From positions 1 through 46,368 of the forward strand of contig JADYXS010000679.1 of assembly GCA_021772155.1 (NCBI GenBank): a stretch of 46,368 bases of DNA, given 5' to 3'. The notes under the pieces are model-generated. The model searched no databases, had not been told where the DNA came from, and worked only from the letters and a program-made list of their open reading frames with translations. Below, piece after piece: positions 4,097-25,273 of the stretch. Each line of letters opens with the position of its first letter. Position 1 is the stretch's first letter. Origin of the DNA: Candidatus Obscuribacter sp. (GTDB lineage: Bacteria; Cyanobacteriota; Vampirovibrionia; Obscuribacterales; Obscuribacteraceae). A program made the position numbers and the translations under genes.

Positions 4097-5332
4097 TTAC
4101 CTTCGGGTTTGTAGACCGGAACCGTACCGATTTTGCACGTAGTCATTGAGCAGGCAAATGAAATCGTCTACTAAAGTAGGACCAGATAGTGTCGTGAAGT
4201 GCCTGCCGTCGACATAAACTGGAGCGCGTGGTTCTTCGCCTGTACCTGGCAGCGAAATGCCGATATCGGCGTGCTTTGATTCTCCCGGGCCGTTGACGAT
4301 GCACCCCATCACGGCAACCTTCATCGTTTCGATACCAGGATAGAGTTCTTTCCAAATCGGTCTTTGCTGGCTCAGGTGCCCTTGAATTTGCTGCGCCAAT
4401 TCCTGGAACAGCGAACTTGTCGTCCTTCCGCAACCTGGGCAGGCCGTCACCTGCGGCGCGAATGAACGAATTTTGAGCGACTGCAATATTTGTTGGCAGA
4501 CGTGAACTTCCTGAGTCCTGGAACTGCCCGGCTCCGGGGTCAGGCTCACGCGGATCGTATCGCCGATGCCTTCATTCAGCAACACGGCCAGAGCTGCTGT
4601 GCTGGAGACAATACCTTTGGTTGACATTCCAGCTTCGGTCAATCCCAGGTGCAGCGCATGATCGCTGGCGGCTGCAAGCTTCCTGTAAACCGAAATCAAA
4701 TCCGGCACTTCAGATACTTTAGCGCTCAATACGATTCGATCCCTCTGCATCCCGTAAGACTCAGCCAGAGCAGCAGATTGTACGGCGCTGGCCACTATAG
4801 CGGCAATTAACACGTCCTGAGCTTCCTGCGGACTAGCACTGTGAGCATTTTCGTCCATCATGCGGGCCAGTAGTTCTTGGTCAAGGGAACCCCAATTCAC
4901 CCCAATGCGAACCGGCTTATCATGCTTCAACGCAACATCGATCATGCTCTTGAAATTTTCGTCGTGCTTGTCGCCGTGTCCGACATTTCCCGGATTTATG
5001 CGGTATTTAGCTAGCAGGCGGGCGCATTCTGGATACTCGCGAAGCAAAAGATGCCCGTTGTAGTGGAAATCGCCAACCAGCGGTACATTTGCGCCCTTTT
5101 GCTCAAGCAAAGCGACTATTTCCGGGACTGCCATAGCCGCTTCCCGGGTGTTGACCGTGATGCGCACTATCTCAGAGCCGGCAGTCCAGAGGTCGAAAAC
5201 CTGCTCAGCCGTGGCTCTAGGGTCTTCGGTCGGTGTATTGGTCATGGACTGTACGAGTAGTGGAGCGCTGCCACCGATAAACTTATCGCCGACCCGAACA
5301 GTTGTACTCTTTCTTCGTTGAATTACAGACAT
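4097..5332 (-). CDS. ispG: 4-hydroxy-3-methylbut-2-enyl diphosphate synthase (flavodoxin/ferredoxin)
   Basis: IspG (GcpE) reduces MEcPP to HMBPP, the penultimate step of the MEP route to isoprenoids, using a [4Fe-4S] cluster. Family landmarks are all present: [13 protein letters not shown] near the start, [14 protein letters not shown], the NPGNVG motif, [19 protein letters not shown], and the cluster cysteines in TACPGCGRT and [11 protein letters not shown]. The start at 5332 gives 411 residues beginning MSVIQRRKS. The 39 extra codons upstream (to 5449) have no family counterpart and would run into the DUF488 gene. The length is nearer that of cyanobacterial IspG than the shorter enterobacterial enzyme. 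It is divergent from the DUF488 gene across a 90-bp gap. Confidence 0.95.
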
Positions 5333-5422
5333 CTCAGCATTTAGAATCAAAGCGCTCCAAGCACGGCCAAGATAACATAGGTTGGTTCTGGGGAGTGGGC
5401 GGCTGTAGTAGTTGTAACCAAG

Positions 5423-5950
5423 ATGCGGATTATTTATACAGTAGGTCATTCAAATGGCTCTTTCGAGTCGTTCGTGGAGCTGCTCGAAATGCACAAGATT
5501 GACGTAGTTGCCGATGTTCGATCATCGCCTTACACGCGCTATGCCGTACATTTCAACATGGAACCAATCAAGGTCAGCTTGCGCTCTGCGGGCCTAAAGT
5601 ATGTCTACCTGGGCAAACAGATAGGCGGAATGCCAAAAGACTCCTCCCTTTATGATGACGAGGGCAATTTGGACTATCAACTCGTTTCCAGTTCTGAGGT
5701 CTTCAAATATGGTATCAGTCGCCTGGTGACGGGGTTGGAAAAATACTCCATTGCGCTGATGTGCGCAGAAGAAAATCCAGCCGGATGCCATCGAAGACAC
5801 TTGCTGGCACCGGCTTTACAAGAATTTGATATCGACGTCAGGCACATTCGAGCCGACGGTTCCTTGAATACCGAGAGCGATCTGAGTGTGCCAGAGAAGG
5901 GCAAGGGCTCTGCGGATTCACAACAATTGAGCTTATTTGGCGGAGCCTAG
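5423..5950 (+). CDS. DUF488 domain protein
   Basis: A 175-residue protein with the DUF488 hallmarks: [18 protein letters not shown] at the start, [21 protein letters not shown] and the cysteine motif [16 protein letters not shown]. The biochemical function of the family is not established. No clear Shine-Dalgarno sequence precedes the ATG at 5423, but the VGHS motif a few residues in fixes the start. The last 40 residues are polar and likely unstructured. Its TAG stop shares the palindrome CTAG (5947-5950) with the stop of the convergent kinase gene, leaving no room for a terminator between them. Confidence 0.88.
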
Positions 5951-7941
5951 TTAATGCTCGTTGTATCAAGTGGTTCTGCCGGCGTGCTACCAGGGAAGGC
6001 GTAAAACCCAAGGAGCTTGATTAGATCATTGTAGCCGGCCGCCCGTAGTGCCTCGACGCATAATTGACGATCTGAGTTTCTGAAGTGCACCGTAAAGGCG
6101 CTAGAAACTTGCTTAGCGTCCCTAAAGGAGTTGAGGAGTTTCTTGGCTGCCTCATGATCATGTTGTCTGGCCGCCAGGAGAGTCTCCAGCAAGACGATTG
6201 TTTCGCACGGTCCGGGCGGAAACTCCTCCTTGCACATCTGCTCACTGTTCTTGAGGTATAACGCTGCCATGGCATTATCGTTCTTGTAAATTGCAACGCG
6301 AGCCAATGCTGCCCAGTCAGCTGCTCCAAGAGAATGTGGAAGGTCTTTTTCATCTTTATAGATTTTGAGAGCCGCGTCGTAGTTTTTCCGCAGCATGTTG
6401 ATGTCGCCCAACAAGAATCTATAGTGAACTTCAGCTTTTGAAGTCACTATTGACCGCATTTGCTCTTGGAGATTTCTTTCCGCGATATCCAAATGCCCGT
6501 GATATATGAGGATTTCTGCAAGCAAAATCCGCGCACGCTCGAATTCCCATCGGACATTCGGATAGTCGTTTTTATTGCGCTGCAAATCCCGTAACACCGA
6601 CACCGCCAGATCTGGGCGATTTTCTACATTGAGTGTTCTGGCAAACAATAGCTCATCGGCAGGAATTCGCAAGCGCGGGGCTATTGAAGCTCGAATTGTC
6701 AGTGCTTTGTCAATTTGCCCATCAAGCTTCCTTTTGTCGTTGCTATCTAGATAACCGTGCGCTAGCCATTGCGCGACTTTTAGCCGTTGCTGAGGTGTGA
6801 GCTTATGATCCAGTGCATCAGCCTTTTCTATCGCTTCCATGTTTGCAGCCCAAGTAGAAGTATTTGGTGCTTTGGAATCCCATTTGCGAAAAAGCTCTAT
6901 GGCAAGTTCATTAGAGTCGCGACGTAATGAAGACGCACCGCGCCATGAGTTAAATAGTGAGAAGAACCCAAGCAGGGCCACGCCAGTCAGTGCGATCACA
7001 GCAACGCTCCACAAGTTGTGCCGGGAGCTTCGCTTAGTCAATGAAGGCACTTGCGGAGCGGAGAAACGTTTTATTCGTGTTAAATCGCCGCCAATGATGC
7101 GTTCTAGGTCCGCACACACTTCATCTGCTTTCGTGTATCTGTCGTCCGGGTCCTTCGCCATACAATTATCGAGTACATTTTGCAGCGCTTTCAACTTTGG
7201 AGTGTTTTCGATCTGCTGGCTGATTGGAATTGGCTGATCATTGATGTGCCTGAACATAACTGAAACATTGTCATCGGCATCGAAAGGTAGCTTTCCAGTT
7301 AAGCACTGGTAAAAGATACAACCTGCAGAATAGATGTCCGCTCGCTGATCAGTTGTGCCACCGAGACATTGCTCCGGAGCCATGTAGTGACATGTGCCCA
7401 GCGCATAACCTGTCTCAGTAAGCTTCTGAGAGCTAATGCCATATCCGGGCATTAGCTTTGCCAGACCAAAGTCGATTATCTTCACTGATGATGCTCGATC
7501 GCTTGACGGTATCAACATTATATTGGATGGCTTGAGATCCCGATGGACAACACCGCTGGCGTGAGCGCACGCCAGTCCAGCGAATAACTGGGACATTACT
7601 GCCAGAACTACCTCCGGCTCTAGCTTATATTGTACTTCCAGAGTGTCGTCGAGACTCTTCCCTTCTATGAATTCCATCACCATATACGGTGCGTTCTGCC
7701 AGATGCCGTATCCATAAAGAGAGATGATGTTTCTGTGTTTGATGGAGTTGATCGATTTGGCTTCTCGCTCAAAGCGCAGGAGCCCATCAGATTCGTCAAG
7801 TAAGGTCGTTTTAAGAACTTTAATGGCCACGACGCGCCCGAATTGCTTGTGCATTGCTTTATACACATTGCCGAATCCGCCGGCGCCGAGCATGCTGATG
7901 ATTTCGTATTTGTCGTCGATGATCGTTCCGTGGTCGATCAT
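5947..7941 (-). CDS. Membrane Ser/Thr kinase with TPR-like outer domain (kinase F)
   Basis: 664 residues, last gene of the six-kinase operon. A Hanks-type kinase domain occupies roughly residues 12-283, with glycine loop GAGGFG 19-24, ATP lysine K41, HRDLKPSN 133-140 (D135 catalytic), DFG 157-159 and APE 188-190, so it should be active. A basic stretch leads into one transmembrane helix at about 310-330, placing the kinase in the cytoplasm. About 330 outer residues contain helical-repeat motifs (AEILIYHGHLDIAERNL, KNYDAALKIYKDEKDLP) and end in LRAAGYNDLIKLLG. It is the closest relative of kinase E, which it resembles throughout. Its ATG overlaps the kinase E stop (ATGA), implying translational coupling. 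Substrate and signal are unknown. Confidence 0.93.
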   Translation of the reverse strand: MIDHGTIIDDKYEIISMLGAGGFGNVYKAMHKQFGRVVAIKVLKTTLLDESDGLLRFEREAKSINSIKHRNIISLYGYGIWQNAPYMVMEFIEGKSLDDTLEVQYKLEPEVVLAVMSQLFAGLACAHASGVVHRDLKPSNIMLIPSSDRASSVKIIDFGLAKLMPGYGISSQKLTETGYALGTCHYMAPEQCLGGTTDQRADIYSAGCIFYQCLTGKLPFDADDNVSVMFRHINDQPIPISQQIENTPKLKALQNVLDNCMAKDPDDRYTKADEVCADLERIIGGDLTRIKRFSAPQVPSLTKRSSRHNLWSVAVIALTGVALLGFFSLFNSWRGASSLRRDSNELAIELFRKWDSKAPNTSTWAANMEAIEKADALDHKLTPQQRLKVAQWLAHGYLDSNDKRKLDGQIDKALTIRASIAPRLRIPADELLFARTLNVENRPDLAVSVLRDLQRNKNDYPNVRWEFERARILLAEILIYHGHLDIAERNLQEQMRSIVTSKAEVHYRFLLGDINMLRKNYDAALKIYKDEKDLPHSLGAADWAALARVAIYKNDNAMAALYLKNSEQMCKEEFPPGPCETIVLLETLLAARQHDHEAAKKLLNSFRDAKQVSSAFTVHFRNSDRQLCVEALRAAGYNDLIKLLGFYAFPGSTPAEPLDTTSIN

Positions 7942-9950
7942 TTTTGCTCGCTTCGGACCGACTCCGGCTGAATTTCAAGCGGTAGTCGAGGCTTCAAATT
8001 GGGCAGAGCGTAAGGACCAAGTAACTTGATTAGGTCGTCGTAGCCGGCGGCCTTGAGCGCCGATGCGCACAGTTCACGATCCGAATCTTCAAAATAACGA
8101 GTGCCGGCGCAATAGGTATCTTTGGCATTGCGGAACGCGGTGACGAGCTGCTTGGCTTTTTCGTAATCATGTTGTCGTGCTGCCACAATGATTTGCAACA
8201 TGACCACAGTTTCGCACGGTTTGTCAGGAAAATCTTCCAGGCACAGCTGCCGGGTGCGCTCCACATATCGCGCGGCAATGGCATTTTTATTGTTGTAAAG
8301 TGCGCTGCGTGTAAGCGCGGCCGCGGCCACTGATGCGAAAGGATGGGGAGTATCTGATGCTTCTAAATAAATTTTGTAGGCGGCACCGTAGTCCTTCTTC
8401 AGCATGGCGATGTCGCCTAACAAGCATCCGAAGCGCACTGATGCCTCCGCGCCCAGCTCTGAACGCATTCGCACTCTAATTCTCTTTTCCGCCCGGTCTA
8501 TATGCCCGTGAAAAATGAGTATCTCATTGACACTGAGCCGTGAAAGCTCGACTTCCCAGGGTGAGTTAGGATAATCGCCTTCAATTGCATGCAAATCACA
8601 TAGTACCGTCACTGCCTGGTCGGAGCGATTTGCCCGGTCGAGAGTGGTGGCGAAGAGCAGTTCATCGGGGGGATGTCGCAATCGGCGGGGAACTGTTGCT
8701 CGAATGTGCAGTGCTTCGGCAATCTGTCGATCTCTCTTTTTTAAGTCCTTTGCCAGGGCGTAAAAGTGCGCCAGCCATTGAGCCACCTTTAGCCGCCGCT
8801 CCGGTGTGAGGTTATGATCGAATGAGTCGGCCTCAAGGATCGCTTCCATCCTGGGCGTCAGTGACAGCCGATCTGGTGATTTATCGTCCCACTTACGAAA
8901 GAGGTTCGCGGCAAGCTCGCTGGAGTCGTGATGCGAAGAATTTCCTGCACGCCAGGCGCCAAACAGTGAGAAGAGCCCAAACAGCGATACGGCAGTGAGT
9001 GCTATGACGGCAACGCCTCGCAAATCCTGCTTAGAATTTCGCTTGCTCGATGCCGCAACAGTGGGGGTGGAGAAGCGTTTTATTCGGCTTAGATCGCCGC
9101 TAATGATGCGTTCTATATCCGTTTTCACTTCATCGGCCGTAGTGTATCTGTCTTCTGGATCTTTGGCTAGGCAATTGTCGAGGATTATTTGTAGTGCTTG
9201 GAAAATCGGCTTGTTTCCGCAGTGTTGGCTAATTGGAATCGCCTGGTCGTTGATGTGTCTGAACATAACGGCAACGTTGTCGTCTGCATCGAATGGCAAT
9301 TTCCCCGTCAGGCATTGGTAAAAAATGCAACCTGCAGAATAGATGTCTGCTCGTTGATCAATTGTGCCACCGAGGCATTGCTCTGGAGGCATGTAATGAC
9401 ACGTCCCCAATGCATATCCTGTCTCAGTAAGCTTTTGAGAGCTAACGCCATAACCGGGCATTAGCATCGCCAGACCAAAGTCAATTATCTTCACGAGCGA
9501 TTTTCTGTCACTTGATGGTATCAACATTATGTTTGACGGCTTGAGATCGCGATGGACGACACCGCTTACGTGAGCGCATGCCAGTCCTGCAAATAGTTGC
9601 ACCATTATGCTGAGAACTTCTTCCGGCTTTAATTCATCCTTACCTGCTAAGGTGTCGTCGAGGCTCTTGCCTTTTACAAACTCCATCACCATATATGGTG
9701 TGTTTTGCCAAATGCCGTGTCCGTAGAGTGAGACGATGTTCTTGTGTTTGATTGCGTCTATCGATTTTGCTTCTCGCTCAAATCGCAGCAATCCATCGGT
9801 TTCGTCAAGCAAGGTCGTTTTGAGAACTTTAATGGCCACAACGCGCCCGAATTGCCTGTGGAGCGCTTTGTACACATTGCCGAATCCACCAATGCCGAGC
9901 ATGCTGACGATTTCGTATTTGTCGTCAATAATCATGCCTGGTTCGATCAT
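7938..9950 (-). CDS. Membrane Ser/Thr kinase with TPR-like outer domain (kinase E)
   Basis: 670 residues. All catalytic landmarks are present (GIGGFG loop, VAIK lysine, HRDLKPSN, DFG), and PPE replaces the usual APE in the P+1 loop (TCHYMPPEQ). The membrane helix lies at about 311-331 (VAVIALTAVSLFGLFSLF), followed by an outer domain of about 340 residues with TPR-like helix pairs (NEILIFHGHIDRAEKRI, KKDYGAAYKIYLEASDTP) and the terminal LKAAGYDDLIKLLG motif shared with kinase F. I start at ATG 9950, whose A is also the last base of the kinase D TGA. The GTG one codon earlier (9953) is possible, but paralogue alignment supports the ATG. The stop overlaps the kinase F start by 4 bp. Confidence 0.93.
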   Translation of the reverse strand: MIEPGMIIDDKYEIVSMLGIGGFGNVYKALHRQFGRVVAIKVLKTTLLDETDGLLRFEREAKSIDAIKHKNIVSLYGHGIWQNTPYMVMEFVKGKSLDDTLAGKDELKPEEVLSIMVQLFAGLACAHVSGVVHRDLKPSNIMLIPSSDRKSLVKIIDFGLAMLMPGYGVSSQKLTETGYALGTCHYMPPEQCLGGTIDQRADIYSAGCIFYQCLTGKLPFDADDNVAVMFRHINDQAIPISQHCGNKPIFQALQIILDNCLAKDPEDRYTTADEVKTDIERIISGDLSRIKRFSTPTVAASSKRNSKQDLRGVAVIALTAVSLFGLFSLFGAWRAGNSSHHDSSELAANLFRKWDDKSPDRLSLTPRMEAILEADSFDHNLTPERRLKVAQWLAHFYALAKDLKKRDRQIAEALHIRATVPRRLRHPPDELLFATTLDRANRSDQAVTVLCDLHAIEGDYPNSPWEVELSRLSVNEILIFHGHIDRAEKRIRVRMRSELGAEASVRFGCLLGDIAMLKKDYGAAYKIYLEASDTPHPFASVAAAALTRSALYNNKNAIAARYVERTRQLCLEDFPDKPCETVVMLQIIVAARQHDYEKAKQLVTAFRNAKDTYCAGTRYFEDSDRELCASALKAAGYDDLIKLLGPYALPNLKPRLPLEIQPESVRSEQK

Positions 9951-11953
9951 CACCGAATGGTTCCTGGACCGGTGGGGGGCAAAGTGCTGCGGGGCAGCAT
10001 CTGCAATTTGTCTGCAAGGATATCGAAACCGGCGTTGTGTAGCTCCGTTGATGCAATTGAAATGTCCCGGTCGTTCAATTTAGCGGGTCTTGAGAGCGAA
10101 AGGGAAGGCGATTGCTTTTGAACAAGCGCCTCGACAGCAGCAGCAGGCTCTTTTGCTGCCGCTGAAGCTGCCGTAAGAATCAGATACGCACTTGCAATAG
10201 GAAAGGTTGTGTCGTGCGGCTCGCTCTGTCTATTGGACTCGAGAGCGTTCTTGGCATACTTTGCCGCCGAATCAAAATGCCGCTGATAAAGTTCGCTGCG
10301 CGCCAGTCCCAACCAGCCCCAGTCGTCAAATGCCCAGGTATCTTTCAGCGATTGCTGGAAATGCCTTTGGGCCGCAGCGTAATTACCCTTAGCCAGCTCC
10401 AGGTCTCCGAGCGAGACCTGGCAAAGGGATTTGTAAAACTCCGCTTGATCAACGTGGCTCCGGAGCCAAACTGCGACCTGGTCGGCTTTAACTAATTCGT
10501 CTTCTTCAATGTAGGCTGTGATTAACAGCGCACTAAGGTAGCATGCCGCCGCCTGCGAGCCATCACGAGTCAACAGACTTCTTGCTGCGATAGACTTTTC
10601 TAAGGTAACCATTGCAGCCGCGGTCTTCTGCTGAGCTAGTTGGGCAGTGGCAAGACTTACTATCAACCTTCCGTTGATCCAACTTTTGTCCAGTCGGGAG
10701 TTTTCTGCTAGAGCTTGTTTGCTGTACTGTTCCGCCTTTGCAAAATTGCTTCTTTGATAGTGAACATCAGAAAGCACTTCTGCGAAGAAGTAGGCTGCCT
10801 TGGCGCTTAGTGCATGATCTTGCGCGTATAGACGCAAAACGTTTTCTAGCTCTGGTGCCAAACGCTCGCGGGTAGCAAGAGTGTTGTCCAATTGTCGAAC
10901 GAGCGGTGCGAACAGATCGCTGGAGCTTGGGGACTGGGTGGTTTTAAAAGTTGAGCCCTTGGTGCTGAGCAAAAATAAGCACAAGATACCGGCCGATACC
11001 ACCGCTGTAAGAATGAGCGCTGCGGTGGCGTCCTTGGCTGCCCAAGATCTTTGTGATTTTCTGCGGATCTTCGTATTGAGCCTGACAATGGAGTCATAGC
11101 GTTCCTCGGCAATTGAGAGCGCATCGCGTGCAGCTTCCCGACCATCAGAATAGCGATCCTCGGGCTTTTTGGCCAGGCAGTTATCGATAAGTGTCTGCAA
11201 AGCTGAAGTCTGTGTGCTTTCGCCAAGGCTCTGTGTAATTGGTGGTGATTGTTCGTCAAGGTGTTTATACATGATTGCAACGTTATCTGCAGCGTCGAAT
11301 GGCAGCTTAGCCGTTAGGGCCTGTTGAAGGATGCAGCCTGCCGAATAGATGTCGGCCCGTTGATCAACTTGCAGTCCGCGAGCCTGTTCCGGTGCCATGT
11401 AGTGACAAGTACCCAGTGCGTATCCTGTTTCGGTAAGCTTTTGCCCCGGAACGCCATAGCTTGGCATCAGCCTTGCCAGGCCAAAGTCGATTATCTTCAC
11501 GACTTCAAATCCATTGCTATCAGTGACAATCATGATATTTGAAGGCTTTAAATCACGATGCACTACCCCGTGACGATGCGCGAAATCGAGAGCTTCAAAA
11601 ACCTGAGCGATGATCTTAAGTGCCCGATTGGGTTCGAGTTTACCGTCTATGATCATTTGTTCTAAACTCTTCCCTTCAATGAATTCCATCACCATATATG
11701 GTGCGTTGAGCCAGACCCCGTATCCATAGAATCCGACTATGTTCTTGTGTTTCAGCGCGTTGATAGCCTTAGCTTCTCGCTCAAATCGAGGCAATCCTTC
11801 CGGATCTTCCAACATCGTCGTCTTGAGAAGCTTGACTGCCACAAATCTGTCAAATTGGATCTGGCGGGCCTTCACAACGGTTCCGAAGCCACCGACGCCG
11901 AGCGTGCTGACAATTTCATATCGGTCGTCAATTGTCGTTCCCGGTTCGTTCAT
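9950..11953 (-). CDS. Membrane Ser/Thr kinase with TPR-like outer domain (kinase D)
   Basis: 667 residues. Kinase domain about 12-285 with GVGGFG, VAVK (K41), HRDLKPSN (D134), DFG (D156) and a canonical APE. An arginine/lysine-rich stretch precedes a membrane helix at about 306-328 (ALILTAVVSAGILCLFLL). The outer part is a run of TPR-like helices, including SDVHYQRSNFAKAEQYSKQAL, a GDLELAKGNYAAAQRHFQQSL unit and SELYQRHFDSAAKYAKNAL. It ends with the ELHNAGFDIL motif that kinases B and C also carry. Both ends overlap neighbours (ATGA with kinase C upstream, TGATG with kinase E downstream), so it is translated as part of one coupled message. Confidence 0.93.
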   Translation of the reverse strand: MNEPGTTIDDRYEIVSTLGVGGFGTVVKARQIQFDRFVAVKLLKTTMLEDPEGLPRFEREAKAINALKHKNIVGFYGYGVWLNAPYMVMEFIEGKSLEQMIIDGKLEPNRALKIIAQVFEALDFAHRHGVVHRDLKPSNIMIVTDSNGFEVVKIIDFGLARLMPSYGVPGQKLTETGYALGTCHYMAPEQARGLQVDQRADIYSAGCILQQALTAKLPFDAADNVAIMYKHLDEQSPPITQSLGESTQTSALQTLIDNCLAKKPEDRYSDGREAARDALSIAEERYDSIVRLNTKIRRKSQRSWAAKDATAALILTAVVSAGILCLFLLSTKGSTFKTTQSPSSSDLFAPLVRQLDNTLATRERLAPELENVLRLYAQDHALSAKAAYFFAEVLSDVHYQRSNFAKAEQYSKQALAENSRLDKSWINGRLIVSLATAQLAQQKTAAAMVTLEKSIAARSLLTRDGSQAAACYLSALLITAYIEEDELVKADQVAVWLRSHVDQAEFYKSLCQVSLGDLELAKGNYAAAQRHFQQSLKDTWAFDDWGWLGLARSELYQRHFDSAAKYAKNALESNRQSEPHDTTFPIASAYLILTAASAAAKEPAAAVEALVQKQSPSLSLSRPAKLNDRDISIASTELHNAGFDILADKLQMLPRSTLPPTGPGTIR

Positions 11954-14010
11954 AGTTTATTGAGCTCGGGGGCGATCTTTTGCGTCAGTAAATTGAATTT
12001 GGCGGCCTTTTCGAAGCGGGGCATGAGAATATCGAATCCGCCGGCGTGAAGCTCAGCTAATGCTATGGAGATGTCGCGCTCGTTAAGTTTCGTAGGCCGG
12101 GGAAGAATAATCATTGGCGAGTCCGTAGAAACTCGTTGGACAAATGCCTCTACGGAAGCGCGTTCTTTCTTCTGCGCGGCTGCTGTAGTCAGAATTAGAA
12201 TGGAACTTGTTATCGGAAAGGAAGGGCGCTCCTTGTTTTTCCTGTTGGATTCAAGAGCGTTGCTTGCATATTTTGCGGCCAACTCAAAATGCCGCTGATA
12301 GAGTTCGCTGCGTGCAAGTCCTAACCAGCCTCGGGCCTCACCTTTCTCGTTGACCTCAATTGCGGATTTGAAATTCTCTTGTGCCGCACCATAGTTGCCC
12401 TTAGCCAGTTCCAGATTCCCTAACGCGATTAGCGAATCGATTTTGTATAACCCTGCCTGAGTAAGCTCTGTCCGGAGCCAATCTGCCAACTGGCTGGCTT
12501 TGCGCAATTCGCCTTCGTCAATGTACACAGTGATCAAAAGCGCACAAAGGTGGCATGACGCAATGCCTCCCGAACCTGAATCAAATTGATTCCTTGCGGC
12601 CATACCCTTTTCCAGGGTAATCATCGCGTCGGCTGATTTTTGCTGACGCATCTGCGCGCGCGCAAGATTTTCAAACAACCTTCCGCTAATCCAGTGTTTG
12701 TTTAGGCGGGAGTTCTGCTCCAGAGCTTGCCTGCTATATTTTTCCGATTTTTCGAAATTGCTTCTTTCATAATAGTAACTAGAAAGCTTTTCGGCCAGGT
12801 CGTAAGCTTCGCGATCCGTGATGTGGTTATCTTGTTCGGGTGCCGTCAGGATCTTTTCGATATCTTGTGGTGTGCGATCGTTGAGCGAGGTGGCAGGCAT
12901 CAGTGGATCTCTGAGATTATAGGTATCGTCATATTTGGACTTGAGTTGTTTGCCAAAATCGCTGGTGTGCTTATCCTGAGCGGTTTTCGAAGACGAACCC
13001 TTTTGGCGAACCCAATCATAATAAATTGCCCCGGACAACCCCGCTGTGAGCACTGCCGTAAGGACAATAGCCTTGATCCAAACTTTGGTTGTGCCTGGTC
13101 TGTCGGATTTTCCAGAGCCGCCGGATTTTGCGTTCAGTCTGACAATGGAATCGTAGCGTCCAGCCGCCAGTAAGTGCGCGTCGCGCGCAGCTCCAGCACC
13201 GTCCGGATAACGATCGTCGGCATTTTTTGCAAGGCAGTTATCGATTAGTACCTGCAGAGCCGAAGTTTGGACGCTGGTGCCAAGTGTCTGTGCAATTCGG
13301 GGTGACGGACTGTTGATGTGCTGAAACATGACGGCAACATTATCTGGCGCATCAAATGGAACGGTGCCCGTGAGAATCTGCTGCAATATGCAGCCTGCCG
13401 AATAGATGTCGGCCCGTTGATCAACGGGTATACCGAGCGCTTGCTCTGGTGGCATGTAGTGACCACTGCCAAGTGCGTACCCGGTTTCCGTGAGTTTTTG
13501 CCCGGGAATGCCATAGCCGGGCATCAGCTTGGCCAGACCAAAGTCGATTATTTTCACGACTTCTGAGCCTGTGATATCAGTGATTATCATGATATTGGAA
13601 GGCTTTAAGTCGCGATGGACCACGCCGTTCAGATGTGCGAAGTCTAGTGCTTCGAAAACCTGAGCAATTACTTTTAGCGCGCGAGTGTGTTCCAGTTTAC
13701 CCTTCTCGATAATTGTATCTAAACTAGTTCCTTCGATGAATTCCATCACAATATATGGTGCGTCTTGCCAGGCACCATATCCGTAAAAACTAACTATATT
13801 TTTGTGTTTTAGTGCATTAATGGTCTTAGCTTCTCGCTCAAATCGGGGCAATCCATCCGGATCGGACAATAACGTAGTTTTGAGAAGCTTGATTGCAACT
13901 AAGCGCTCGAGCTGTAATTGGTGAGCTTCGACAATTGTTCCGAATCCGCCAACACCGATAATGCTGATGACTTCGTACCTGCCGTCAATAATTGTTCCTG
14001 GTGTAATCAT
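11950..14010 (-). CDS. Membrane Ser/Thr kinase with TPR-like outer domain (kinase C)
   Basis: 686 residues, with intact catalytic motifs (GVGGFG, VAIK, HRDLKPSN, DFG). The P+1 loop reads GSGHYMPPEQ where all five paralogues have GTCHYM, so the usual Thr and the family-specific Cys are both replaced. A membrane helix lies at about 312-333 (IKAIVLTAVLTAGLSGAIYY). The outer domain is TPR-like (SSYYYERSNFEKSEKYSRQAL, NLELAKGNYGAAQENFKSAI, SELYQRHFELAAKYASNAL) and ends in ELHAGGFDIL. It is closest to kinase D in the outer domain. ATGA overlaps join it to kinase B (upstream) and kinase D (downstream). Confidence 0.93.
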   Translation of the reverse strand: MITPGTIIDGRYEVISIIGVGGFGTIVEAHQLQLERLVAIKLLKTTLLSDPDGLPRFEREAKTINALKHKNIVSFYGYGAWQDAPYIVMEFIEGTSLDTIIEKGKLEHTRALKVIAQVFEALDFAHLNGVVHRDLKPSNIMIITDITGSEVVKIIDFGLAKLMPGYGIPGQKLTETGYALGSGHYMPPEQALGIPVDQRADIYSAGCILQQILTGTVPFDAPDNVAVMFQHINSPSPRIAQTLGTSVQTSALQVLIDNCLAKNADDRYPDGAGAARDAHLLAAGRYDSIVRLNAKSGGSGKSDRPGTTKVWIKAIVLTAVLTAGLSGAIYYDWVRQKGSSSKTAQDKHTSDFGKQLKSKYDDTYNLRDPLMPATSLNDRTPQDIEKILTAPEQDNHITDREAYDLAEKLSSYYYERSNFEKSEKYSRQALEQNSRLNKHWISGRLFENLARAQMRQQKSADAMITLEKGMAARNQFDSGSGGIASCHLCALLITVYIDEGELRKASQLADWLRTELTQAGLYKIDSLIALGNLELAKGNYGAAQENFKSAIEVNEKGEARGWLGLARSELYQRHFELAAKYASNALESNRKNKERPSFPITSSILILTTAAAQKKERASVEAFVQRVSTDSPMIILPRPTKLNERDISIALAELHAGGFDILMPRFEKAAKFNLLTQKIAPELNKL

Positions 14011-15806
14011 TGTGTAGAGATTGGATTGTAGAGACCCCAGGTTGGGCCAATTGGATTCCGCATTCGCGGCACAAGATCATCGAAGCCGGCCTTGTGAAGC
14101 TCAGTGGATGCTATGGACATGTCGAGGCCGTTCAATAAAGCAGGCGATAGAGGAGCACCATACAGCATCGAGTGTGCGTGTTCTTCAATCAACGCCTCGA
14201 TGGGAGCGCGTTTCTTCTGGCTGGCGGCGGCAGTTGTCAAAATTGGATACAAGTATTCTGGATGAAAAGTTGTGTCGTTATTCTCTATTGTTTTCATGCG
14301 ATTAGCTGCAAGAGCTTTGTTTGCATACTGGGCCGCCAGCCCAAAGTGTTCCTGATAGAGCTCACTGCGTGCAAGCCCTAACCAGCCCCAGGCGCCAATG
14401 CTCCCTCTAGCTTTAAGCGCCCCTCTGAAACACTTTTCGGCAGCGGCGTAATTTTTCTTGGCCAGTTCTAAATTTCCTAACGAGATCAGGCAGGGGAACT
14501 CGTACAATTCTGACTGACCAAGTTCGCTTTTCAGCCAGTCTCCCACCTTGCTGGCTTCTCCCAGCTTGTTTTGGTTAATGTACATTTCCATCAATTCCGA
14601 TCCTCGGGACCATGTTGTGGCCGCTCGCACCTCTGGGTCAGACTCAGTTTTTGCCGCCAAGATGGCCGCTTCCATCGTAATGTTGGCGTTGGCTGTTTGT
14701 TGCTGAACCATTCGTGCTGTGGCAAGATTTAACTTCTCATTTAGCTGCTCAGCCAGATGGCTAGAGCTCGCTCTCTTGGTGGGTTTTAGATACGAACTCC
14801 GGGCTCCGAGCCATGAATAATAGGCTAAGAAGAATCCCGCTGTAACTAGTGCTGTGAAAATGAGTGCGTCAGTGATGCCTTTGGTTGTGCCTGCCTTTAG
14901 TGATTTTCCGAAAATACCGGTTTTGCTGCTGAGTCTGGAAATTGAATCATAGCTTCCGTTGGCTACTAAGAGCGCCTCGCGCGCGGCCTCAGTACCGTCC
15001 ATATAACGATCAGCGGGATCTTTTGCCATGCAGTTATCGATCAGCACCTGCAGTGCAGAAGTCTGCTTGCTAATGCCAAGTTTCTCGTTGAGTGGTGGCG
15101 ATTGATGGTTGAGGTGTTGAAACATAATTTCCACGTTATCCGGGGAGTCAAATGGAAGCTCGCCGGTTAGCGCCTGTTGCAAGATGCAGCCGGCCGAATA
15201 AATGTCCGCGCGTTGATCAACTGGTATTCCCAGAGCTTGTTCCGGGGGCATGTAGTGACAGGTACCGACGGCGTATCCGGTTTCAGTGAGCTTTTGCCCG
15301 GCAACACCATAGCTGGGCATCAGCTTTGCCAGACCGAAGTCGATTATCTTCACGACTTCTGAACCGTTGCCATCATTCACAACCATGATATTCGAGGGCT
15401 TTAAATCGCGGTGGACGACTCCATGCAGGTGTGCGAAATTGAGACCTTCGAAAACCTGAGAGATGATCTCCAATGCGCGATTTGGCTCAAGTTTACCGGC
15501 GGCAATAATCTGTTCTAAACTTTCTCCGTCGATCAGTTCCATCACCATATATGGTGCTTGGTGCCAAACGCCATATCCGTACAAGCTGACAATGTTTTTG
15601 TGTTTTAGTGCATTGATAGCTTTGGCTTCTCTTTCAAATCGAGATCGACCATCCGGATCGACTTCGAAAGTGGTTTTGAGAAGTTTGACTGCAACCAACC
15701 GGTCGAATTGGATCTGCCGAGCCTTCACAACTGTGCCGAATCCGCCGACACCAATGGTGTCGAGGACCTCGAATCGATTGTCGATAAGCGTGCCGTTTTC
15801 AAACAT
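14007..15806 (-). CDS. Membrane Ser/Thr kinase with shortened TPR-like outer domain (kinase B)
   Basis: 599 residues, first of the five stop/start-overlapping genes. Its N-terminus (MFENGTLIDNRFEVLDTIGVGGFGTV in two nearly identical stretches with kinase A) and 5' flank closely match kinase A. Catalytic motifs are intact (K41, D134, D156), with PPE in place of APE. A membrane helix lies at about 308-331 (ALIFTALVTAGFFLAYYSWL). Compared with kinases C and D, the outer domain lacks about 70-90 residues right after the juxtamembrane segment, removing one predicted TPR-like unit in frame. The rest (NLELAKKNYAAAEKCF, SELYQEHFGLAAQYANKAL, ELHKAGFDDL) is conserved. It is separated from kinase A by 363 bp holding a duplicated leader, so it may start its own transcript. 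Confidence 0.93.
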   Translation of the reverse strand: MFENGTLIDNRFEVLDTIGVGGFGTVVKARQIQFDRLVAVKLLKTTFEVDPDGRSRFEREAKAINALKHKNIVSLYGYGVWHQAPYMVMELIDGESLEQIIAAGKLEPNRALEIISQVFEGLNFAHLHGVVHRDLKPSNIMVVNDGNGSEVVKIIDFGLAKLMPSYGVAGQKLTETGYAVGTCHYMPPEQALGIPVDQRADIYSAGCILQQALTGELPFDSPDNVEIMFQHLNHQSPPLNEKLGISKQTSALQVLIDNCMAKDPADRYMDGTEAAREALLVANGSYDSISRLSSKTGIFGKSLKAGTTKGITDALIFTALVTAGFFLAYYSWLGARSSYLKPTKRASSSHLAEQLNEKLNLATARMVQQQTANANITMEAAILAAKTESDPEVRAATTWSRGSELMEMYINQNKLGEASKVGDWLKSELGQSELYEFPCLISLGNLELAKKNYAAAEKCFRGALKARGSIGAWGWLGLARSELYQEHFGLAAQYANKALAANRMKTIENNDTTFHPEYLYPILTTAAASQKKRAPIEALIEEHAHSMLYGAPLSPALLNGLDMSIASTELHKAGFDDLVPRMRNPIGPTWGLYNPISTQ

Positions 15807-15892
15807 GTCCAGTAAGCGCCTGTGTCGTCTTCCGAGGTCAAAGTGCCGGCCATACCATTATTCCCCGGACAGACCGCCGAGCATCTGTTTTT
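15807..15892 (-). promoter_or_regulatory. Duplicated upstream leader of kinase B
   Basis: Bases upstream of kinase B match those upstream of kinase A (19995-20094) in two blocks. One, next to the start, covers about 29 bases. The other, farther out, includes GTCCGGGGAATAATGGT and AAAACAGATGCTC. Between them the sequences differ in both content and length. AATAAT is a plausible -10 box on the minus strand, but no good -35 box is evident. No normal Shine-Dalgarno sequence precedes either ATG. Conservation in noncoding DNA suggests a shared promoter/operator or an untranslated control element. Confidence 0.55.
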
Positions 15893-16169
15893 CGCTAGCG
15901 TGCAGGTAGCCAGTAGCCATCGAACTGGCCCCTGAAAGTGCCAGGGAGCCAAGAGAAAGTTAGGAGTTGGATTCCTGTGAGCCAAGCCAGTTGAGCTTTT
16001 TGCCCAAGCGCCTGAGCCAATGAGCTGACATCCCACGGCCGAAATTGCAACATGGAGAGAAGACGCTAGAGAGGCATGACAATTGCCTGCCTGTCAATAT
16101 CGACTCAATAATCAAGATTGCGGCAGTGTCAGTCATCCCGATAAGCGTACCGAGATAATCGTGGTCGGA
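15893..16169. other. Intergenic region between kinases A and B
   Basis: No convincing gene. It holds a TGACA/TGTCA inverted repeat (16077-16096) that includes a minus-strand TTGACA, without a matching -10 box. I see no terminator with a U tract after kinase A, so read-through from kinase A into kinase B is possible. Confidence 0.4.
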
Positions 16170-19100
16170 TCAATTCCGCCGCTTTGCCTGGCGTCCAGCC
16201 AGAGGAAAATCGGCAAACCAGATCGGCCAAGATCTAGCTTCAGGTTCAAGGGCCAATGCTCTGTTATACAATTTCCGGCCCTCTTCGTTGCGTTGTGTCA
16301 TTCGACAAACATCAGCCAGTGCGATCATGACCATATAATCAGCTGGATACTCGCTACTCATGTTGTGCAATAGGTTGTACGCGGCAGTTAGATTGCCTCT
16401 ATCGATGTACACGCGCGCCAGGGTGTGTTGATCGCAAAGGCGCGAATAGCCGTGCGGTGCAGTCGAAATTCGCGCCTGCAATGGTCTTTCGATTTCGGCG
16501 TCCGGCTCAAGTTTCTCCAGTAATTGACTGTTGATTAGACCGTAGTAGTAGCAAATGTGCCATGCCGATGCACCGGGCGCATCTGCCAGCTTCTTGAGTT
16601 TATCCAGTTGAATTCTACATTGCCGGGGAGCGCCAGCATCAAGAAATAGGATTGCTGCTTCTATGCGGAATACTTCCTTATCGTACGATTCCATTTTGCC
16701 GAAGCCTGGTTCGGAATCAGCCTTGCGGAATGCTTCTAGGGCAGATGCCCGCTGTGACATTCGGAGGCGAACCTTTGCCAGTTCCAGATACTCGAATGAG
16801 CGATGACTGTTGGGTGGAATTACAGCCAAAGCATCCTCTAGAATTCTAGATGCTGCAGTTAGATCGCCCTGCCACGCGTAATCATGCGCCAATGACGCAG
16901 TATGCAATCTACCGTTTCTTAAGGAATCGGGACTTCGGGTTTTGATGTTAGAAAAAAGCGTTCTCAGTTCGTCTAGTTGTATTCTTGCGAAACCGGGCTC
17001 GTTTCTTGCAAGGGATTCCCTTGTATCAAACAGCAACAGCCAGGCGCAAGTATTGAAATCACTTGCGTTGTACTTACCGAATGTCGGGTCTGCTTGTGCG
17101 CGACGTATTGCAAGTACAGCACCGCTCACGTCGGAAAGACGTAAGCGCATCGTGGATAGGGTCAACCAGATTATCGGTCGCTGGGGAGCTTTCGGGTAAC
17201 GCTCCAAAGCCTGTTCAAGAAGAAGCGAAGCCGTTCGTGGATCGTCTATCCTCTTGTAGTAAAAATAGGACAATGAACGATAGCACTCTGCGTCGGAATC
17301 AGTCCTTTCCTCAGGTTTTTGACTGTCCAGTAGCTTTGAGATCGATTGTAGTTGCAGTTTGCATTCTTCTATTTTACTTTCGGCCAAAAAGTCGATTGCC
17401 GAGTCTGTGTCAATCGCGATGCGTTCATTCAGAGGCATGATTAAAACGTCTGCCGTTGCTAGAGCTGCCTTTCGCAAGTTGATTGCCGTTTGAAAATTCC
17501 TCATCCTGCTCATCAGTCGCGCCTTCTGTATCAGCTCACGACCATGCCAACCGGATTTCGGGTGAGAATTTAAACCTCGGTCGATCCATCTGAGCGCAGC
17601 GGTCTTATCTTGCAGCCGCCATTGCAGATCAGAGAAAGAAATGTACAAAGGGGAATCTTGCTGTAATGTCCCGTTGTGGCAGTTTTCCAACTTTTCTATT
17701 AGATTAGCTAAAAAAAGCACGCTCTCACGTGCAGATTCTGTTTTGCCAATTTCCGAAAGATGATTGCTAATTACGGCACAGACCTCCGCCAGTCGGACGC
17801 ATTGGGGCGATTTGATGTCAAACTTTGCAATCGATTGCTCGATCAGCTTCAACGCATGTTCATGTTTGTCCGTCAATCGATATTCATTCACGAGTCTGGA
17901 AACAATCTCTGTGCGCGTTTCCGCAGGAAGTCTTCCGCGATCACAAGATAGAAAGATCTCCAATAGCGCTATTTGCTGATCGTGCTTTGTTGCGTCCATT
18001 CGAGGAAATGCAAGCAATTCGGGAGCTTTAAGTCCCGATGATGGTAGCAAGCTGCAAATCCTATTGATCGCTGTTCGAGCCCCTGAAAGGTCATGGCAGC
18101 GTATGTAAATGCAGGCTTGGTCGCGGTAACAGAGAACTGCCTCTTTGCGTGTTTTCATTCTGGTAGCAGCAAATTTGATCAGACGATCGGCAGCCTCAGG
18201 ATCCTCATGATCGAGAAAGCAGCCGCACAATGCCTGGATGTTGCCGTAAAGTGAAAGTTCCGGATTTGAATGAAGTTCCATTTCCTTGATGTATTTCTCC
18301 AGATCGGCGTTGGCGTTCACCTCATGCAAAGTCGCAAGGCCATAATTCATGGTCAGCGCCATGTAAGCCGGACTGGAAGGATCTGCGATTTTCAGGCCGC
18401 GCAAGGATACTTCTGCAGCGTGTGCGATGTCGCCCGAGTCTGTGTAATAAGTGGCGAGCCACTGGTAAATTTGCAGCAACCGGGCCTTGGCAAATTGTTG
18501 TTGTGGAACAGGATTAATTTGTTGCTCCAACGCCCGGGCGCTGGTTAGCGCAACTGGCAGGGCCTGAGCACTCTGTCCCATTGCCTGGGCGCGCGATAGA
18601 TAGCTCACCGTCAATAAACCAAATGCAGTGTCGGTCGGTGCCAACAGGCTTATTGCTTGCTTACTAACTTCCATTGCCTTCTTGTTGTTTTTTTGATCGG
18701 TGTACAAGTTAACGAGCAGAAGCAGTATCGTGGTTCTATCGGCGACCTTCATGGTCGCGCTCGCCAGTTGGGGCCGCAGCTGCTCCAGGAGCCTGGTTGC
18801 CTCTCTTGGATTGCTTGTCACGAATCTTTTTGCAATAGATAATGTGCGCTCAATGTCGTCTAGGTTGGCGCCGCTGTCCCTTTCTTTTCCGCCTTTGCTA
18901 AGGGCAGTGAGTTTCAAACTTTTCAGTGCTTGATAGAATTGTGTTTCGAGGCCACCAGAGTGCAGATCTTCGGTGATTGTGGAAGATGAAAGGTTTGCAT
19001 AAAACCAGGTGAACCCAAATAGCCCCAATGTAGCAATTGCTGTAAAAGCAAGTGTCTTACTAGTGTCCTTGGTTGCCTGCGACTTTTGCGATTTGCCAGG

Positions 19101-19994
19101 CCGGAAGAATGCTGAATTGAATCTGAGAACGGAGTCGTAACGTCCATCGGCAAGTAAGTGCGCGTTGCGCGCAGCTTCAGCACCGTTCGGATATCTATCG
19201 TCAGCGTTTTTGGCGATGCAGTTATCGACGAATATTTGCAAAGCGGAAGTTTGCTTGCTACTGCCAAGCTGTTTCGAAAGTGGTGGCGCTGAATCGTGGA
19301 CGTGTTGAAACATCACCGCAACGTTATCCTGCGCGTCAAATGGAAGGTCGCCAGTTAGCGCGTGTTGCAAGATGCAGCCTGCAGAATAGATGTCGGCTCG
19401 TTGATCTACTGGTAATCCCAATGCTTGCTCTGGTGGCATGTAGTGACAAGTGCCCAGCGCATATCCGGTTTCGGTAAGCTTTTGCCCAACAATGCCATAG
19501 CTTGGCATGAGCTTGGCCAGACCAAAATCGATTATCTTGACGACTTCAGAACCATTGGCATCAGTGACAATCATGATATTCGAGGGTTTTAAATCGCGAT
19601 GCACCACGCCGTGTCGATGAGCGAAATCGAGGGCCTGGCAAACCTGAGCCATAATTTTCAATGCCCGATTTGGTTCCAGTTTACCTGCGGCGATAATTTT
19701 ATCTAAACCTATTCCTTCGATGAGTTCCATCACCATATATGGTGCGTTGATCCAGGAACCGTACCCATAGAAGCCAACTATGTTTTTGTGCTTCAGTGCG
19801 TTGATAGCTTTGGCTTCCCGCTCAAATCGAAGTAGACCATCCGGTTCGTTCAATAATGTAGTTTTGAGCAGCTTGATGGCAACCAACCGGTCGAATTGGA
19901 CCTGGCGAGCCTTCACAACTGTGCCGAACCCGCCGACACCAATGGTGTCGAGGACCTCGAATCGATTGTCGATAAGCGTACCGTTTACAAACAT
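16170..19994 (-). CDS. Giant membrane Ser/Thr kinase with about 930-residue helical-repeat outer domain (kinase A)
   Basis: 1274 residues, first gene of the kinase array and about twice the size of the others. Kinase domain about 12-285 with GVGGFG 19-24, K41, HRD 132-134, DFG 156-158 and PPE 187-189; it should be active. A single membrane helix lies at about 313-332 (KTLAFTAIATLGLFGFTWFY). The remaining 940 residues are almost all helical and TPR-like (DLTAASRILEDAL, NLTAAYNLLHNMSSEYP, NEEGRKLYNRALALEP). Residues about 943-1068 and 1069-1140 begin with matching modules (RLRLS/RLRMS, then FGK, then RIQLDELRTL/RIQLDKLKKL), so part of the outer domain arose by internal duplication. It lacks the C-terminal AGFD motif of kinases B-D. 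A ligand-binding or scaffold role for the outer domain is inference. Confidence 0.93.
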   Translation of the reverse strand: MFVNGTLIDNRFEVLDTIGVGGFGTVVKARQVQFDRLVAIKLLKTTLLNEPDGLLRFEREAKAINALKHKNIVGFYGYGSWINAPYMVMELIEGIGLDKIIAAGKLEPNRALKIMAQVCQALDFAHRHGVVHRDLKPSNIMIVTDANGSEVVKIIDFGLAKLMPSYGIVGQKLTETGYALGTCHYMPPEQALGLPVDQRADIYSAGCILQHALTGDLPFDAQDNVAVMFQHVHDSAPPLSKQLGSSKQTSALQIFVDNCIAKNADDRYPNGAEAARNAHLLADGRYDSVLRFNSAFFRPGKSQKSQATKDTSKTLAFTAIATLGLFGFTWFYANLSSSTITEDLHSGGLETQFYQALKSLKLTALSKGGKERDSGANLDDIERTLSIAKRFVTSNPREATRLLEQLRPQLASATMKVADRTTILLLLVNLYTDQKNNKKAMEVSKQAISLLAPTDTAFGLLTVSYLSRAQAMGQSAQALPVALTSARALEQQINPVPQQQFAKARLLQIYQWLATYYTDSGDIAHAAEVSLRGLKIADPSSPAYMALTMNYGLATLHEVNANADLEKYIKEMELHSNPELSLYGNIQALCGCFLDHEDPEAADRLIKFAATRMKTRKEAVLCYRDQACIYIRCHDLSGARTAINRICSLLPSSGLKAPELLAFPRMDATKHDQQIALLEIFLSCDRGRLPAETRTEIVSRLVNEYRLTDKHEHALKLIEQSIAKFDIKSPQCVRLAEVCAVISNHLSEIGKTESARESVLFLANLIEKLENCHNGTLQQDSPLYISFSDLQWRLQDKTAALRWIDRGLNSHPKSGWHGRELIQKARLMSRMRNFQTAINLRKAALATADVLIMPLNERIAIDTDSAIDFLAESKIEECKLQLQSISKLLDSQKPEERTDSDAECYRSLSYFYYKRIDDPRTASLLLEQALERYPKAPQRPIIWLTLSTMRLRLSDVSGAVLAIRRAQADPTFGKYNASDFNTCAWLLLFDTRESLARNEPGFARIQLDELRTLFSNIKTRSPDSLRNGRLHTASLAHDYAWQGDLTAASRILEDALAVIPPNSHRSFEYLELAKVRLRMSQRASALEAFRKADSEPGFGKMESYDKEVFRIEAAILFLDAGAPRQCRIQLDKLKKLADAPGASAWHICYYYGLINSQLLEKLEPDAEIERPLQARISTAPHGYSRLCDQHTLARVYIDRGNLTAAYNLLHNMSSEYPADYMVMIALADVCRMTQRNEEGRKLYNRALALEPEARSWPIWFADFPLAGRQAKRRN

Positions 19995-20094
19995 GCCCAG
20001 TAAGCGCCTGTATCGTTTTCCGAGGTTTTACTGATGAAGCCGGTGACGACTACGACCATTATTCCCCGGACAGGCAGTGGAGCATCTGTTTTTG
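19995..20094 (-). promoter_or_regulatory. Duplicated upstream leader of kinase A
   Basis: Counterpart of the kinase B leader: the same start-proximal block (CAGTAAGCGCCTGT and TTCCGAGGT on the + strand), then a variable segment, then ACCATTATTCCCCGGACAG and GAGCATCTGTTTTT. The shared noncoding blocks point to a common control element or a recent recombination between the two loci. Confidence 0.55.
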
Positions 20095-20319
20095 GGTGAT
20101 GCTTGAGTTGACAACCGGCTCAACGGTTGGCCGCTGCCTTAACAGCGGAAAAACCATCACATTAAGTCAGTTTCGTCTTCGCCAGCGGATGCAGGCAACC
20201 GTGAATGGCATCTCCAGCGCCGGCATTCTCAGGCTTCATGTGAATTGCCCAGCGCTTGCTTCGTCCGCTCGAGGGAGATAAAATCGGCAATTCGTACCCG
20301 ATTCGGAGAGAACTCACCA
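20095..20319. other. Intergenic region between kinase A and the HD gene
   Basis: No gene is supported. A 6-bp hairpin, CCGCTG (20131-20136) with CAGCGG (20143-20148), lies here. Its T run is on the wrong side for a minus-strand terminator. The region must hold divergent promoters for the kinase array and the HD gene, but I cannot place them. Confidence 0.4.
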
Positions 20320-20982
20320 ATGCAGACTGCGACAAAGGCATCCATTATCGAAAATGCGCGCAAGTATGTGCAAGAAGAGATGTCCAAAGATAGCAGTGGA
20401 CACGATTGGTGGCACATTCATCGTGTTTCTACCTGCGCCAAGAAGCTAGCTGAAAAATGCGGCGCTGATATCTTTACGGTTGAGTTGGCCGCTTTGTTGC
20501 ATGACGTGGGCGACTATAAGCTGCGCGGCCCGTCTGGCGAAAAGGAGTCAGAGATTGCGCGCCGCTGGCTCGTAAACGAGAGGGTCGATATTCAGGTTAT
20601 CGAACATATCTGCGACATCATCGATTGCATGTCGTTTAAAGGCGCGGGAGTGACGAGCTCTATGAAGACGCTGGAAGGCAAAGTTGTGCAGGATGCTGAC
20701 CGCTTGGACGCAATAGGCGCCATAGGGATCGCGCGCACTTTTGCTTATGGCGGAAACAAGGGACAATCAATGCACGACCCGGAGCTGGCGCCGCAGTTTC
20801 ACCAAACGATGGAGCAGTATCGCACCAGCCGGACAAGCTCAATTAATCACTTTCATGAAAAACTGCTGTTGCTGAAAGACTTGCTTAATACAGAACCGGC
20901 AAAGGTCATGGCGCAAGGACGACATGATTACATGGTCCAATTCATTGAGCAGTTCGAACAAGAATGGCAGGGTGAGCGCTAA
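20320..20982 (+). CDS. HD-domain phosphohydrolase
   Basis: 220 residues from ATG 20320. The open frame reaches back to 20245, but the extra 25 residues are not typical and GGAGAG lies about 10 bases before this ATG. HD-superfamily metal ligands are visible: H28 in GHDWWHIHRV, H61-D62 in LLHDVGD and the D125/D127 pair in QDADRLD. The overall layout, including GAIGIARTFAYGG, matches the YedJ/YpgQ group of small HD hydrolases, which act on nucleotides or related phosphate compounds; the actual substrate is unknown. It converges with the RadC-type gene with only 9 bp between stops. Confidence 0.9.
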   Translation: MQTATKASIIENARKYVQEEMSKDSSGHDWWHIHRVSTCAKKLAEKCGADIFTVELAALLHDVGDYKLRGPSGEKESEIARRWLVNERVDIQVIEHICDIIDCMSFKGAGVTSSMKTLEGKVVQDADRLDAIGAIGIARTFAYGGNKGQSMHDPELAPQFHQTMEQYRTSRTSSINHFHEKLLLLKDLLNTEPAKVMAQGRHDYMVQFIEQFEQEWQGER

Positions 20983-24654: not shown

Positions 24655-24655
24655 A

Positions 24656-25273
24656 ATGACGGAGCAGGATAAAGCCCCGAATAAGGTCGCCTTGATCGGA
24701 TTTGCCGTACCGACTGTGTTGTTGGCTACAGTTGGCGCTGTTCTCTGGTTTAAGCATTCCAGCAAGCCGATGGTTGCTTATCCGGAAATGCTTTTCTTGC
24801 TTGCCCTAATGCCGGTGTTGTTTTATCTGATCGGCAGCATGCCACGAAGCTCTGCCCGCCAGTTTGTTGGCATGACCTCCTGCGTCATTTGGATCCTTGG
24901 AATCGGTCTGGCTTTCGTCATTCCACCCGAATCCAATTTCATTTACGTGCCGGATGCGCTTTTAATGCTTGGATTCTTTCCACTTTTGTATCTTTGGAAG
25001 TACAGCTGGCCCTGGCTGGTATTCGGACTGTTGAACCTGGGGATAGGCATACTTCTTATGGTTATTGAGTACAGCCCGGATAATTTGTTTCCTGCAGATT
25101 TACTCAAGCCCAAGCATCATTTGGCCGACTATCATCCGGCTGTAGTCTGGTACACAACAGGCGTTTTCGCCACCATGTTCGGAGTTGGGCGGATGATCAA
25201 GAACATATATAAGATGATCGCCCGGCGTGGACAACCCAAAAGCAGTCAGCCGCCTACGGAACCGTCACCGTAG
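24656..25273 (+). CDS. Multi-pass membrane protein, unknown function
   Basis: 205 residues from ATG 24656, immediately after the TOPRIM stop. The frame is open back to 24527, but that part overlaps the TOPRIM gene. Five to six hydrophobic segments are visible (VALIGFAVPTVLLATVGAVLWF, LFLLALMPVLFYLIG, SCVIWILGIGLAFVI, LLMLGFFPLLYLW, WLVFGLLNLGIGILLMVI, TTGVFATMFGVG), and the tail is basic and cytoplasmic. No family recognised. The adjacent start suggests co-expression with the TOPRIM protein. Its 3' end overlaps the convergent oxidoreductase gene by 20 bp. Confidence 0.75.
   Translation: MTEQDKAPNKVALIGFAVPTVLLATVGAVLWFKHSSKPMVAYPEMLFLLALMPVLFYLIGSMPRSSARQFVGMTSCVIWILGIGLAFVIPPESNFIYVPDALLMLGFFPLLYLWKYSWPWLVFGLLNLGIGILLMVIEYSPDNLFPADLLKPKHHLADYHPAVVWYTTGVFATMFGVGRMIKNIYKMIARRGQPKSSQPPTEPSP

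Follow-up and report, generated by a model that had tools for sequence, protein, structure and literature searches.

A tandem array of receptor-type Ser/Thr kinases, probably young and lineage-specific, within the kinome expansion of Obscuribacteraceae

Membrane Ser/Thr kinases (STKs) with periplasmic tetratricopeptide (TPR) or WD40 repeats were described for 'Ca. Uabimicrobium amorphum', which encodes 525 STKs, and for other Planctomycetota, where they underwent lineage-specific expansions (Odelgard et al. 2024, PMC11032199). Among myxobacteria, Sorangium cellulosum has 317 eukaryotic-like kinases (ELKs), 26% of them with C-terminal TPRs (cited in PMC11032199 and PMC2887360), and tandem duplications of neighbouring kinases were reported for the group (Perez et al. 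2008, cited in PMC11032199). A further case of such TPR receptor kinases is an array of six consecutive genes (Table 1) in contig JADYXS010000679.1 of Candidatus Obscuribacter sp. (assembly GCA_021772155.1), a member of the family Obscuribacteraceae in Melainabacteria. The whole stretch of 46,368 nucleotides that was analysed is called here the window. It is quite probable, the mechanism detailed below included, that the six genes form a tandem array of receptor-type STKs that is young, is specific to its lineage and arose by repeated local duplication within a kinome expansion of Obscuribacteraceae. A first-pass annotation, made from the sequence alone, had suggested a possible stoichiometric multi-kinase sensor complex not described before. 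The combination of a cytoplasmic kinase with outer TPRs is of the kind already known from Uabimicrobium and Sorangium.

The array proteins, by their predicted topology, and the Uabimicrobium STKs described in PMC11032199 have in common a cytoplasmic Pkinase domain, mostly a single transmembrane segment, outer C-terminal TPRs and a lineage-specific expansion. The array host differs in belonging to another phylum and in having fewer kinases (192 candidates in 7.0 Mb). Arrays joined by gene overlaps go unmentioned for the Uabimicrobium STKs in the accessible part of that source. Myxobacterial kinomes are alike in their large size, tandem duplications, poor synteny and kinases that far outnumber phosphatases; they are found in genomes of 13-14.8 Mb, while the Obscuribacteraceae expansion is family-wide at 2.3-9.2 Mb.

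The strongest evidence on how the array arose comes from the comparison of its genomic site. The gene order ETF-ispG-MATE-OLD is conserved among relatives, and in this genome the ispG-MATE interval is filled by a DUF488 gene, the six kinases and an HD gene. None of 18 relatives with adjacent ispG and MATE genes carries a kinase between them; these belong to different genera and none to the same genus, so that the comparison is between genera. The same set of kinase genes in the same order, as expected of a multi-kinase operon conserved across genera, was likewise found in 0/18 relatives. Lack of conserved synteny was half of what the first-pass annotation had named as evidence against its proposal of a multi-kinase complex, and at this site it is observed in 18/18.

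Phylogeny leads to the same conclusion. Of the 242 kinase domains placed in one tree, the six of the array group as a single clade (support 0.915), and their next relatives are two partial contigs and a second array of the same genome (G000:C178:1906-7933, locus L003) whose three kinases are joined by ATGA overlaps. The locus thus has the two features of a lineage-specific tandem array, monophyletic members and absence from the orthologous site in relatives. In a second tree of 186 candidates, 31/57 pairs of physically adjacent kinases are nearest neighbours, mutually or one way, and 43/57 lie within the five nearest; local duplication is thus the general route in Obscuribacteraceae. In G022 (L226) and G023 (L237), which represent two further genera, different kinase genes (three and two, respectively) are found to the left of ispG, away from the MATE side, and this suggests independent insertions in one neighbourhood.

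An insertion between conserved flanks might also be expected of a mobile or defence island carrying kinases, and PADLOC kinase models do match the array proteins. Those matches lie within about the first 345 residues, nearly all kinase domain, and would fit any PknB-like kinase. Moreover, neither integrase, transposase nor tRNA gene was found among the window open reading frames (ORFs) examined, and for the closest paralogues of the array one has to turn to further contigs of this genome; an island origin is hence highly improbable. A defence system was ruled out on the kinase-generic nature of the PADLOC matches. The same holds for a plasmid origin, the plasmid matches being partial, below 60% identity and none covering 80% of the query.

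The same-strand paralogues proposed at first reading, each with an intact kinase followed by a membrane helix and a helical outer domain, were recovered concordantly by ORFs, profile PF00069, hydropathy and AlphaFold2 (AF2) or TPR evidence. Pkinase PF00069 matches all six proteins with 162-187 bits. Each has a full Hanks-type (PknB-like) catalytic core including an APE-like motif, with intact G-loop, VA[IV]K, HRDLKPSN, DFG and an LTETGYA..PEQ activation loop that keeps T-x-T. A single membrane segment is predicted in each protein, around residues 311-333 (weak in three proteins; hydropathy 1.54-2.67). The count of lysine and arginine is higher before than after this segment in 6/6, by a difference of only 1 in three proteins. 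The outer parts span 271-941 residues, in line with the 270 to 940 estimated beforehand.

The AF2 model of kinase 4, built on an alignment of twelve relatives, features the kinase, the membrane helix and stacked helical hairpins at about residue 348-651, with a predicted local distance difference test (pLDDT) score mostly of 56-96; the structure prediction of an outer domain suggested by the first-pass annotation thus gave a helical fold. TPR profiles are above threshold in the outer domain of kinase 1 and sub-threshold in most others. The single-sequence AF2 model of the 941-residue outer domain of kinase 1 is poor (pLDDT 47) and serves as no more than a hint that the domain is all-helical. 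The matches listed by a fold search were all kinases, with no independent match for the outer fold. On these predictions (hydropathy, AF2 and TPR profiles) the order of N-terminal kinase, single transmembrane segment and C-terminal helical repeats is that of TPR-receptor STKs. The array proteins are, by predicted topology and fold, cytoplasmic N-terminal PknB-like RD kinases with one membrane helix and an outer C-terminal TPR-type domain.

The closest solved relatives of the array kinase domain are PknB, PknA and StkP. The array kinases resemble PknB/StkP in this match (36% identity for the best), in their predicted N-in topology and in the T-x-T activation loop. In contrast to PknB/StkP, they have no PASTA domains and their outer part is made of helical repeats; the PASTA kinase equivalog NF033483 gave 277-304 bits, confined to the kinase part, against an NCBIfam cut-off of 450. 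PknG also combines a kinase with TPRs, and the PknG_TPR model has a match in one of the aligned relatives. However, PknG is a soluble cytoplasmic kinase without transmembrane segment (PMC11032199), while the array proteins have such a segment between their kinase and TPR parts and do not fall in the PknG class.

Amino acid identity between array members is 58-83% in the kinase domains and 20-52% in the outer domains. This far higher conservation of the kinase fits the earlier idea of different outer inputs feeding a common kinase output, and the divergence pattern is compatible with diversified inputs onto one catalytic activity.

Four of the five array junctions overlap (ATGA, ATGA, (G)TGATG, ATGA), confirming the overlaps described for the last five genes. 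They do not extend to all six, since a 363-nt non-coding gap, which the first-pass annotation did not mention, separates kinase 1 from kinase 2. The overlapped genes begin with ATG-A and the uncoupled kinases 1 and 2 with ATG-TTT. Overlap statistics were obtained for directly adjacent kinase pairs on contigs fetched from this genome, with crude gene calls. Overlaps of 1-4 nt are found in 7/36 adjacent kinase pairs against 36/434 other same-strand pairs (p = 0.036), but six of the seven fall in the array clade, four in the window and two on C178. Overlap is therefore not the rule across the kinome: with the array clade set aside, 1/30 kinase pairs overlap against 36/434 (p = 0.50). Junctions of membrane kinases in the arrays of relatives mostly have no overlap.

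These junctions bear on the proposal that kinases 2-6 assemble in a stoichiometric hetero-oligomeric receptor kinase complex ensured by translational coupling. Four consecutive 1-4 nt overlaps that outlasted third-position divergence, and the intact kinases of all members, are in its favour. It conflicts with the absence of an array at the same site in 18 relatives, with the mostly non-overlapping junctions of other tandem arrays in the family and with the ordinary overlap frequency outside the array clade, and is unlikely. Its more detailed version, a coupled fixed-ratio hetero-oligomer whose different TPR ectodomains would read a signal combination into a shared kinase core, is less likely still. 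When the endpoints of a duplication fall at homologous positions, the junction is copied automatically, so that one original overlap suffices. In the simplest reading the overlaps were inherited with tandem duplication and need not reflect selection for stoichiometry; later selection to keep them remains compatible. The complex therefore finds no direct backing: the site holds no array in relatives, the members are one recent clade, the remaining arrays of the family are of independent origin, and duplication explains the overlaps.

About 110 nt of leader and the initial ~75 nt of coding sequence are much more alike between kinases 1 and 2 than the remainder. Their amino-terminal patch has 92% third-position identity against 52-68% elsewhere, and the two genes share a 50-nt run of identity (permutation p 0.001); a 38-nt identity patch links kinases 3 and 4 (permutation p 0.002). 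Such patches, together with outer domains as different in length and identity as those given above, could be accommodated if the array served as a store for the shuffling of ectodomains. It would then be a cassette driven by dosage and recombination, with conversion homogenising kinase and leader and with outer domains left to diversify, a logic likened to that of antigenic or recognition repertoires. Yet third positions of the kinase domains are only 37-63% identical overall among members, indicating that conversion is not pervasive, and neither recombinase genes nor silent partial copies are found in the array. Such a role is improbable.

The leader 18-mer CTGTCCGGGGAATAATGG occurs exactly only twice in the genome, once ahead of each of kinases 1 and 2, with one further match at 2 mismatches. 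A role of the shared leader as a genome-wide regulatory element was ruled out on this restriction. The gap between kinases 1 and 2 makes two transcription units more likely than one. The position of the 18-mer suggests that the start signal of the five-gene run lies with kinase 2 itself; the copied leader of this gene is the probable start of a five-gene transcript and kinases 2-6 are likely co-transcribed.

The favoured reading of the locus as a young tandem array can be put in a sequence of steps. Repeated local duplication, accompanied by patchy gene conversion, would have built the array. Kinases 2-6 are probably made from one transcript starting at the copied leader of kinase 2, start codons being reused by termination-reinitiation. 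The outer TPR domains may bind different partners or peptides, and binding would dimerise the receptors. PknB, PknA and StkP are receptor kinases activated by dimerisation and loop phosphorylation. As they are the nearest solved relatives, the same activation mode is inferred for the array kinases, whose kinase domains would trans-phosphorylate the T-x-T activation loop. Overlapping cytoplasmic targets would then be phosphorylated, and a few general PP2C phosphatases might reverse the reaction.

Several points weigh against this reading. Catalytic motifs are intact in all six members, which are not decaying copies. Four successive overlaps persist at ~40-60% third-position identity between members, and their survival through considerable divergence is a hint that co-expression was to some extent selected. 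Within the genus, conservation of the array under selection is conceivable, the site comparison being between genera. Ligand binding, dimerisation and targets of the array kinases are putative.

The array belongs to a large kinome. The host genome (7.0 Mb, 730 contigs, 88% complete, 7% contaminated) has at least 151 kinase matches from 192 first-look candidates; in two relatives whose candidates were scored in full, 95/97 and 118/122 were real kinases (~97%). The relatives of the same family include 'Candidatus Obscuribacter sp. MP9P1' (G023) and 'Candidatus Obscuribacterales bacterium SW_5' (G020). Across 36 Obscuribacteraceae genomes of 2.3-9.2 Mb there are 16-329 candidates per genome, a number that rises with genome size (Spearman 0.87) and reaches 200-330 at 8-9 Mb. 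The order also contains a sister family, whose three genomes have 23-26 candidates; families of the class beyond this order have 0-8. Candidates in Obscuribacteraceae reach ~38 per Mb, a density similar to or higher than the values given for myxobacteria in the literature.

The absence of phosphatase and FHA genes stated by the first-pass annotation holds beside the array but not for the whole host genome, which has 6 PP2C_2 and 13 FHA matches. Kinases outnumber phosphatases in myxobacteria too (PMC2887360). A kinase-FHA-PP2C trio is found on contig C75, with similar trios in relatives. On another contig of this genome (G000:C458, locus L187) a partial kinase of the array clade at the contig edge has a PP2C_2 gene ~9 kb off; nothing else hints at a phosphatase close to members of the clade.

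A report of kinase expansion in Obscuribacterales was not found in the open literature, most subscription journals lying outside the search, and the family-wide expansion is possibly a point not yet reported. While the array is ordinary in itself, it drew attention to this expansion in non-photosynthetic relatives of Cyanobacteria. Obscuribacteraceae, sampled over two dozen genera, offer a natural test of how bacterial receptor-kinase repertoires grow by tandem duplication, leader copying and ectodomain divergence.

Table 1. Features of the kinase array and its flanks in the window. Gene numbers follow the direction of transcription, from right to left across the window; gene starts were set by simple rules.
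Feature	Coordinates	Strand	Basis
Kinase 1 (g6), 1274 aa; transmembrane segment 315-333; 941-aa outer TPR domain; first transcribed, without overlap	16170..19994	-	ORF, Pkinase profile
5' leader of kinase 1, partly duplicated ahead of kinase 2; 18-mer CTGTCCGGGGAATAATGG at 20056-20073	19995..20130	-	sequence comparison
5' leader of kinase 2, inside the 363-nt gap; copy of kinase 1 leader; 18-mer at 15855-15872	15807..15940	-	
Kinase 2 (g5), 599 aa; shortest outer domain of the six (271 aa)	14007..15806	-	
ATGA overlap, stop of kinase 2/start of kinase 3	14007..14010	-	
Kinase 3 (g4), 686 aa; sub-threshold TPR matches in outer domain	11950..14010	-	
ATGA overlap, kinase 3/kinase 4	11950..11953	-	
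Kinase 4 (g3), 667 aa; AF2 model with kinase, transmembrane segment and helical-hairpin outer domain	9950..11953	-	
TGATG overlap, kinase 4/kinase 5; ATG start at 9950, GTG at 9953 also possible	9948..9952	-	
Kinase 5 (g2), 670 aa; 5' end at 9953 if GTG start used	7938..9950	-	
ATGA overlap, kinase 5/kinase 6	7938..7941	-	
Kinase 6 (g1), 664 aa; sister to kinase 5	5947..7941	-	
DUF488 gene; tail-to-tail 4-bp overlap with array end; not found at same site in relatives	5423..5950	+	
ispG (GcpE); conserved left flank, anchor of empty-site test	4097..5449	-	
HD-domain gene, divergent to array; not found at same site in relatives	20245..20982	+	
MATE transporter; conserved right flank, anchor of empty-site test	21667..23154	-	

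An Rfam scan of the window found no element, and promoter and terminator scans of the region were at or near chance level and were not used. An OLD-like TOPRIM gene (23368-24654, +) and its small neighbour (24527-25273, +) lie beside ispG-MATE family-wide, with 28-54% identity. Further along the window, a single 808-aa ORF (43405-45831, +) has two complete tandem kinase domains. It is preceded by a single-kinase ORF (42217-43374) and by a pair of PPDK and PPDK regulatory kinase/pyrophosphorylase genes (38440-42167).

Contig G000:C192 (loci L001/L002) of the host genome carries at least 9 kinase domains in 23 kb on one strand, mostly non-overlapping, and is larger than the window array. The best match to the array in a named genome is in G062 (locus L021, CATLTV010000020.1), titled 'uncultured proteobacterium', which has 120 kinase matches; either the title is possibly wrong or this is another lineage with an expanded kinome. 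Giant open frames with FHA matches were seen at G011:C1 ~124889-141619 (-), G005:C1:884293 and G001:C3:43147. The lengths recorded for these frames, all in the same family as the kinome expansion, are 18,420, 9,897 and 6,397 aa, and the largest has more than 10 FHA-domain matches.

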